This document shows positions 452-2,590 of a stretch of DNA of 32,629 nucleotides, in pieces. Source of the stretch: an uncultured Peptococcaceae bacterium (lineage in GTDB: Bacteria; Bacillota; Peptococcia; DRI-13; UBA5745); NCBI GenBank assembly GCA_937873525.1, contig CALMWJ010000353.1, positions 1 to 32,629 on the forward strand, in the 5' to 3' direction. The notes under the pieces are model-generated. The model was not told the origin of the DNA. It saw only the letters and a program-made list of their open reading frames with translations, and made no database searches. Position 1 is the stretch's first letter. Each line of letters starts with the position of its first letter. The translations under genes and the position numbers were made by a program.

Positions 452-988
452 TTATTCTTCAGGCTCCAATAGACCATAGTTCCCGTCGTTACGGCGATAG
501 ACCACATTGATCGTGCCGGTTTCTGCGTTGCGGAAAGCGAAGAAAGCGTGCCCTACCATATCCATCCGCATGATCGCCTCGTCCAGCGTCATGGGTTTGG
601 CGGGGAACCTCTTGGTTCTTACATTGAGGGTGTCTTCTTCTTCGGTGGCAGGCGCGATTCCCGCCATGCTGGGGAGTTTGGTAATGGACAATCTGCCTTT
701 TCGGGAGAAACGCTCCTTGCTGCGAACCAGCTGCTTCTCCATCTTATCGGTCGCCAAATCGATGGCGGACAGAAAATCCACATCCTCTTCCTCGCCTCGG
801 AGGACATATCCACCGATGGGAATGGTGATCTCCACGCGTTTGTAATTCTTTCTGGGTTCTTCAATTAAGGTAACAACCGCTTCGACTTCCCTCTCGATCA
901 ATCGATCTAATTTGCTTAACCTCTTTTCCGTGTAATCCTTGACGTTGTCGGGAACCTGTAAGTTTCTTCCGCGTAGCTGAACTTTCAT
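452..988 (-). CDS. hpf: ribosome hibernation promoting factor, long form
   Basis: MKVQLRGRNLQVPDNVKDYTEKRLSKLDRL... with C-terminal dimerisation domain (KPMTLDEAIMRMDMVGHAFFAFRNAETGTINVVYRRNDGNYGLLEPE). Start moved from 1063 to the ATG at about 988. Confidence 0.93.
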   Translation of the reverse strand: MKVQLRGRNLQVPDNVKDYTEKRLSKLDRLIEREVEAVVTLIEEPRKNYKRVEITIPIGGYVLRGEEEDVDFLSAIDLATDKMEKQLVRSKERFSRKGRLSITKLPSMAGIAPATEEEDTLNVRTKRFPAKPMTLDEAIMRMDMVGHAFFAFRNAETGTINVVYRRNDGNYGLLEPEE

Positions 989-1436: not shown

Positions 1437-1465
1437 AGTATAGCACCCGGATTGGCAAAAGTCAA
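1437..1465 (-). promoter_or_regulatory. sigma-A promoter for csp: TTGACT-N17-TATACT
   Basis: Minus strand TTGACTTTTGCCAATCCGGGTGCTATACT, 57 bp upstream of the csp start. Confidence 0.7.
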
Positions 1466-1575
1466 ACGACATTCATCACCTCGATGATAGAATTATTTTA
1501 CAATATTGTCCTTCTTGCGCGCACGCATTTATCAGTCTTCTTTTGTAATGAGGAATGATTCTTTCCTAGGTTTTC

Positions 1576-1635
1576 TGTGGACAATGTGGATAACTTTGTG
1601 AATAACCGGCATTGTTTAGATTATTCTGTGGAAAA
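1576..1635 (-). promoter_or_regulatory. cluster of four DnaA-box-like 9-mers
   Basis: Plus strand TGTGGACAA (1576-1584), TGTGGATAA (1585-1593), TGTGAATAA (1597-1605), TGTGGAAAA (1627-1635). On the minus strand these are TTGTCCACA, TTATCCACA (consensus), TTATTCACA and TTTTCCACA. Confidence 0.55.
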
Positions 1636-1774
1636 ATTTATCTTGACACGCATCGAAAAAAAGGGTCATGTCCATCTCGATAGACACATCTTGGTCACAT
1701 GATTTTAGTAACAAAAAGATATCGGGAATAAAATAAATGCACCTTGCCTTTATATGACAACTATGGGACAAAAA

Positions 1775-2590
1775 CTACAGGCCATCGGTGTGCGCTTTGT
1801 TGCATCCTGCTGCAAATGTGATTGCGCAGATCTCTTGAAACCCGTTACTTTTCAAGGTTTCGGCACAAGCAAGCAGGGTGGCTCCGGTTGTGATCACATC
1901 GTCCACCAAAAGAACCGGCCCCTGTCCCGCCAGCCAGCTGCCGGGCGCCATGGCAAAGGTCCGGCCTAGACCCTGAAGCCTCTGGTTTTTATTCAAAGCA
2001 GCCTGCGGTTTTCCCGCCTGTTGCCGGATAAGCATCGGGCGGACAGGAATTCCCAGGCGTCTGCCCAGCTGACAAGCCAGGAGCATGCTTTGGTTAAATC
2101 CGCGGACTGCCTCTTTGGCCGGATGCAGCGGTACGGGGATAAGGCAGGATGGATGTCCTCCGCTCCGATCCGTTCGGGATGCAAGGACCCGTGCCATCAG
2201 ATCGCCCATCGGAACCGCCAGATCCATTGCGCCATCGTATTTCAAACGGTGGACCATCTGCCGGTATCCGCCTTCATAAGGTGCTGCCGCCAGGACCTGT
2301 CGCAGGTGATCCGACAGATGTTCGCAGGGGCCTCGGCAAGGCGCATCCCATGCAAAATACCCGCACCGTGGGCAGGGATTCCCATCACGGATGGTCTTCT
2401 CCCAGCGCTCCATACACCGGGGGCAAAGGCCGTAGAGTACCTGGGTACCGGGTGCAAAGCTCCCGCAGAACCTGCAGCTCTCCAAGCCGGGATATACCAG
2501 CGCAGCACACCGCCTAAAGAATTCATGGATCCGCAGCATCGCCATCATTCGATTCATCATGCTCGCGCGCTCAAGGCGCTTCCTCCCCAT
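1775..2590 (-). CDS. comF: ComF family protein (phosphoribosyltransferase-like, zinc-finger N-terminus)
   Basis: Cys-rich CRFCGSF...CPRCMERW...CPRCGYF and PRT motif VLLVDDVITTGATL. Confidence 0.9.
   Translation of the reverse strand: MGRKRLERASMMNRMMAMLRIHEFFRRCAALVYPGLESCRFCGSFAPGTQVLYGLCPRCMERWEKTIRDGNPCPRCGYFAWDAPCRGPCEHLSDHLRQVLAAAPYEGGYRQMVHRLKYDGAMDLAVPMGDLMARVLASRTDRSGGHPSCLIPVPLHPAKEAVRGFNQSMLLACQLGRRLGIPVRPMLIRQQAGKPQAALNKNQRLQGLGRTFAMAPGSWLAGQGPVLLVDDVITTGATLLACAETLKSNGFQEICAITFAAGCNKAHTDGL

Follow-up and report, generated by a model that had tools for sequence, protein, structure and literature searches.

A conserved cluster of four predicted DnaA boxes outside the replication origin, at the comF-csp junction of an uncultured Peptococcaceae bacterium

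The gap between a comF-like gene and the cold-shock gene csp of an uncultured Peptococcaceae bacterium holds four predicted DnaA boxes within 60 bp, and it raises the question of what such a cluster does in a stretch of 32,629 nucleotides (contig CALMWJ010000353.1, here called the window) that, as a first-pass annotation had stated, contains neither dnaA nor dnaN. Three roles had been offered in that annotation: a cluster that titrates DnaA, a promoter region controlled by DnaA, and a part of a replication initiation site. The comparison with related genomes indicates that this is probably a conserved DnaA-box cluster outside the origin, which would titrate or tune DnaA. Both the binding of DnaA and this function are what we infer from the DnaA-box clusters of Bacillus subtilis. 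In B. subtilis, high-affinity DnaA clusters outside oriC are among the regions most tightly bound by DnaA (PMC4447404), and deletion of six DnaA-box clusters leads to early initiation (PMC5295017). The B. subtilis clusters outside oriC (gcp-ydiF, ywlC, ywcI, yydA, sda-yqeG and trmE) are intergenic, have at least four boxes and are few per genome, as is found here, whereas the csp/hpf locus is absent from the 16 of the top-20 DnaA-bound regions of PMC4447404 with which it was compared.

The comF-csp gap extends from the 3' end of the comF-like gene to the csp start and has 394 nt with 36.8% GC. Along its minus strand, the order is box A (TTTTCCACA), 21 nt, box B (TTATTCACA), 3 nt, box C (TTATCCACA), 0 nt and box D (TTGTCCACA), all four co-oriented (Table 1). 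The four 9-mers are present where they had first been annotated, C and D are the two boxes described as directly abutting, and the cluster does lie upstream of the csp promoter, since the box nearest to it is some 110 bp away from a promoter-like site. With several DnaA boxes close together in non-coding DNA, the csp cluster shows a mark by which a DnaA-box cluster (DBC) of the B. subtilis type is recognized.

Table 1. Positions of the boxes, the conserved unit and the neighbouring genes in the window
Feature	Position	Strand	Remarks
hpf, long-form ribosome hibernation factor	452..988	-	downstream of csp; Pfam S30AE + S30AE_C
csp, cold-shock domain protein, 65 aa	1183..1380	-	downstream of unit; Pfam CSD 5.3e-32
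csp promoter, predicted, TTGACT-17-TATACT	1437..1465	-	10/12 match; conserved in relatives
Whole conserved unit, profile R1 match	1488..1637	-	E 5.4e-22; the sequence itself is in the training set
Second conserved block, CTGATAAATGCGTGCGCGCAAGAAGGACAATATTGTAAAATAATTC	1490..1535	-	GGAC 64 nt after box D in the window
DnaA box D (predicted), TTGTCCACA	1576..1584	-	abuts C, 9 nt from C; most relatives have TTATCCACA
DnaA box C (predicted), TTATCCACA	1585..1593	-	exact consensus; 12 nt from B
DnaA box B (predicted), TTATTCACA	1597..1605	-	start-to-start distance to A 30 nt; in other families TTATYAACA-like
DnaA box A (predicted), TTTTCCACA	1627..1635	-	CCACA core invariant in 14/14 aligned units
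comF-like gene, phosphoribosyltransferase domain	1775..2590	-	26.2 bits vs cut-off 26.3; 3' end borders unit

Boxes of this kind could gather by chance in AT-rich DNA, and the gap is AT-rich, yet the probability of this explanation is negligible. In simulations of the 394-nt gap by a first-order Markov model with the same dinucleotide make-up, at least three co-oriented boxes fell within 60 nt in 0 of 40,000 simulated gaps, and two boxes in 0.05%. The window has eight matches to TTNTNCACA (2.5 expected), half of them within the 60-bp cluster. Genome-wide box counts were obtained by pattern searches, and in the assembled sequence of the draft genome (2.25 Mb, 355 contigs) the search for head-to-tail pairs, TGTGNANAA-N0-30-TGTGNANAA, gives three matches, all of them neighbouring pairs of the csp cluster, while the reversed control pattern gives 0 matches. 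Because close co-oriented pairs are confined to the csp cluster in this genome, comparable clusters in many intergenic regions, which the first-pass annotation had named as a finding that would speak against it, do not appear there. Chance is ruled out by the simulations and the pair search, and the conservation of the cluster across families also stands against it.

Conservation in relatives, which had been proposed as a check, extends through the family and the order and beyond. Four genomes of the window's family (G001, G002, G005 and G008, one from the window's genus and three from another) have a comF-csp gap with these four boxes at near-identical spacing, the contig of G008 stopping short of csp, and their ComF proteins are only ~38-47% identical to that of the window. 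G003, a fifth genome, retains the order of the four boxes, three of which are degenerate. G004, of the same family, has an A-B-C-D array that lacks the second block described below, at another locus (G004:C279:1323-1396; L077 / L093), and profile R1 finds no unit in two further members, G006 and G007, which are 85% and 83% complete. The G004 array is located upstream of a gene for a ferredoxin-domain-like protein, and the csp-hpf locus of this genome has lost the cluster.

The conserved unit is built by box A, box B after 30 or 31 nt, box C after 12, box D after 9, and a GGACA-type block. Upstream of csp-hpf in families f3, f4, f6 and f7, the offsets of boxes A, C and D are 0, 43 and 52 (0, 42 and 51 in the window), box B is TTATCAACA or TTATTAACA, and in G018 box C is off-consensus too. 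The second block is centred on GGACA and is often followed by an AATTGT..ACAATT-like inverted repeat; its distance to box D is 63-64 nt in six genomes of the window's family and, in eight genomes that belong to other families of this order, 74-76 nt, so that the two distance classes differ by about one helical turn. In the 14-sequence alignment, GGAC is invariant in 14/14 units, and so are the CCACA or CACA cores of boxes A, C and D. By eye, the GGACA block has no convincing fit to known regulator motifs of the CodY, Rex, Spo0A, CIRCE and LexA types. Between the block and the csp start there are 100 to 239 nt, depending on the genome, and the downstream neighbour varies as well, being csp-hpf in f1 (the window's family), f3, f4, f6 and f7, and glnH in f2, f5, f8 and some class-level genomes.

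Within the order, 23 of 25 genomes have a match to profile R1, a sequence-only model built from these 14 units, and within the class 42 of 46. Matches with better scores, and those of full length, are flanked by comF or fliD-fliS on the upstream side and by csp-hpf or glnH on the downstream side, and genomes that were not used for training (G024, G015, G009, G022 and G012, the last two with partial matches) match at this locus. In the class-level genomes G025, G034, G039, G042 and G043, the match is within ~150 bp of the comF 3' end; comF homologues are present in 52 of 60 relatives. The weaker matches, which lack the block, correspond to a cluster beside a CNNM/CorC gene near tsaD and have the same A-B-C-D spacing.

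A place for the cluster in replication initiation was suggested by a box layout like that of origin sub-regions, by the AT-rich gap, and by the neighbour genes in the window (ftsH, tilS, mazG, coaX, folB and others), which in B. subtilis lie near oriC. The GC skew, also proposed as a check, does not change sign at the cluster in the relatives in which it was run. In G002 and G005, both of the window's family, it flips at dnaA, and its sign is the same to the left and to the right of the csp unit. For G009, a complete genome from the same order, sampled skew values are negative between 1.00 and 2.52 Mb and positive from 2.71 Mb on, with dnaA at 2.67 Mb, the csp-locus unit at 2.28 Mb and the CNNM-site cluster at 1.91 Mb. 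The skew of the window is constant throughout, and in relatives gene orientation switches at dnaA and not at the cluster. The dnaA-dnaN gap of the family contains an origin-like module that combines boxes with a GC-rich step and with repeated TAC triplets, the last being presumably DnaA trios (TAC/TAG) read on the other strand, while inspection of the sequence after the csp unit boxes finds no such arrangement of a GC-rich step and DnaA trios or an unwinding element. The csp locus shares head-to-tail arrays and the same box consensus with a bipartite oriC of the B. subtilis type, but differs from it by the lack of a skew change, of DnaA trios and of dnaA/dnaN. The csp cluster is not the replication origin, a reading rejected on GC skew, and that it forms part of the chromosomal oriC or a second initiation site is very improbable; of the three roles first offered, the one in replication initiation falls. 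By the skew of relatives, the cluster is located outside the origin, which is a further mark of a DBC.

The DnaA protein and the dnaA locus of the window's family have features of their own. The DnaA N-terminal domain (PF11638) is not found anywhere in 8 of the 9 genomes of the family, G004 being the one that has it, and is present in 21 of 22 genomes outside the family; the exception, G014, lacks the DnaA C-terminal match too. In six of the eight genomes without PF11638 (G005, G002, G001, G003, G008 and G006, at loci L055 and L058-L062 of family f1), the dnaA frame opens at a GTG immediately ahead of domain III, mostly with a good ribosome-binding site before it, and domains III and IV are the only ones that Pfam recognizes in the two family DnaA proteins searched. 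Most DnaA proteins of the family therefore appear, from these gene models, to lack domain I (and II). The dnaA gene of the window's genome is truncated by a contig edge (C212), and G007 has no dnaA match. A DnaA-like match in the genome seems to be a helicase-loader-like AAA protein encoded beside a DnaD-like gene, not DnaA. DnaA boxes upstream of dnaA are absent in all seven family genes with upstream sequence (L055, L057-L062) and present in the order's other families; at this locus, the window's family keeps its boxes in the dnaA-dnaN gap only.

Among the roles first offered, titration is the best supported, by the rigid layout kept across families, by its independence of the downstream gene and by the likeness to the B. 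subtilis clusters, from which DnaA binding is taken over. The unit looks functional in itself, because its geometry is kept while the downstream gene and the distance from block to csp change. DnaA would bind boxes A to D cooperatively, B, C and D forming one tight head-to-tail array with A about three helical turns away, and the resulting complex may include whatever binds the phased GGACA block. The cluster would then hold DnaA or change its nucleotide state, at a locus doubled by the passage of the fork, and re-initiation at the true origin, in the dnaA-dnaN region, would thereby be delayed. G004, G006 and G007, which belong to the window's family and either have no unit or have the cluster elsewhere, speak against this explanation.

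That csp and hpf are lasting neighbours would also be in keeping with control of transcription, and the main rival of titration or tuning is that DnaA acts as a transcription factor for the downstream csp and thereby for hpf, which would connect the state of replication with cold shock and ribosome hibernation. In B. subtilis, sda is activated by DnaA, and ywlC is among the genes that DnaA represses (PMC4447404); here the unit lies upstream of csp-hpf in the five families named above, with the csp promoter at the distance already given. A scan of the exact B-C-D triple in named genomes, which also counts for the conservation of the cluster and so for the main reading, gave at least 80 loci. 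Among the matches listed, hpf is nearby at 18 of 80 loci, others are at glnH, tsaD or dnaA-dnaN and about 50 are at other genes; since the sample of the scan is not random, the recurrence of hpf should be trusted, and not its frequency. The hpf group among these matches includes Lachnospiraceae, Paenibacillus and Chengkuizengella, in the order fliS-side genes, cluster, (csp), hpf, Caloramator, in the order comF, cluster, hpf, secA, and further taxa. In Lachnospiraceae and Caloramator the cluster is directly upstream of hpf. Many of the listed triple loci have box A at 30-32 or 40-44 nt from B. Nothing relevant on a DnaA cluster at hpf/yvyD or csp was found in the open-access literature searched.

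Control of csp and hpf is nevertheless rather unlikely. The boxes do not keep a conserved distance from one target gene, as both gene and distance vary: glnH takes the place of csp while the unit stays, which weakens a csp-specific operator as the sole explanation, and the block is found at 100 to 239 nt from csp. In Paenibacillus and Chengkuizengella (Paenibacillaceae), the direction of the boxes is reversed relative to csp/hpf. The promoter region first proposed is possible and is the weaker option, because neither the downstream gene (csp, glnH or hpf) nor the distance to the start of csp is constant.

Titration or tuning has a stricter version, in which the unit, like datA or DARS, acts with a second protein at the phased block to alter the nucleotide state of DnaA and is not a passive sink. 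A partner protein is suggested by the phased second block; with such a partner, the unit would resemble datA or DARS more than a passive sink, and this agrees with the invariant GGAC and with the two block-to-D distances about one helical turn apart. The boxes of datA and DARS work with IHF or Fis sites (PMC5295017). As a whole this stricter version is unlikely, and it counts against it that both elements are reported to be missing from B. subtilis, an organism also reported to be without IHF (PMC13220808). This 2026 review treats as open whether B. subtilis has regulators that balance ATP- and ADP-DnaA. E. coli datA, likewise outside the origin, is a cluster of some five boxes; it lowers initiation and may need an architectural partner site, but it is characterized by an IHF site and DnaA-ATP hydrolysis, whereas the csp unit is known from sequence alone. 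DARS1 and DARS2 of E. coli also combine boxes with a regulatory segment apart from them, in fixed positions, but they are characterized by ADP release from DnaA, whereas the csp unit is known from sequence comparison and has all four of its boxes head-to-tail. Tentatively, the unit might be an ancient Bacillota counterpart of datA/DARS, formed by a four-box platform and a helically phased site for a second factor, whose place at the fliS/comF-csp-hpf junction would go back to the early history of the phylum and which would control active DnaA independently of neighbour genes. The open-access literature searched holds no description of an A-30-B-12-C-9-D layout with a phased second block. The fixed geometry and the phased partner site, at one locus in many Bacillota families, give a specific 150-bp candidate, and comparative genomics can in this way find candidate DnaA-control sites beyond the two model organisms.

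The window's genome has a second cluster, downstream of tsaD on contig C134 at ~46.4 kb (L002:1501-1573), with two exact boxes, three with one mismatch and a layout different from that of the csp cluster. It is in the same position, at tsaD (gcp), as the gcp-ydiF cluster of B. subtilis. At the tsaD/CNNM site of other families, the A-B-C-D array has the same spacing as the csp unit and is accompanied by more boxes.

A structured RNA at the csp cluster was considered and set aside, the window having no Rfam match. On the plus strand, a TTGACA adjoining box A (1643-1670) is kept in the family with no gene after it, and possibly belongs to an unannotated small transcript.
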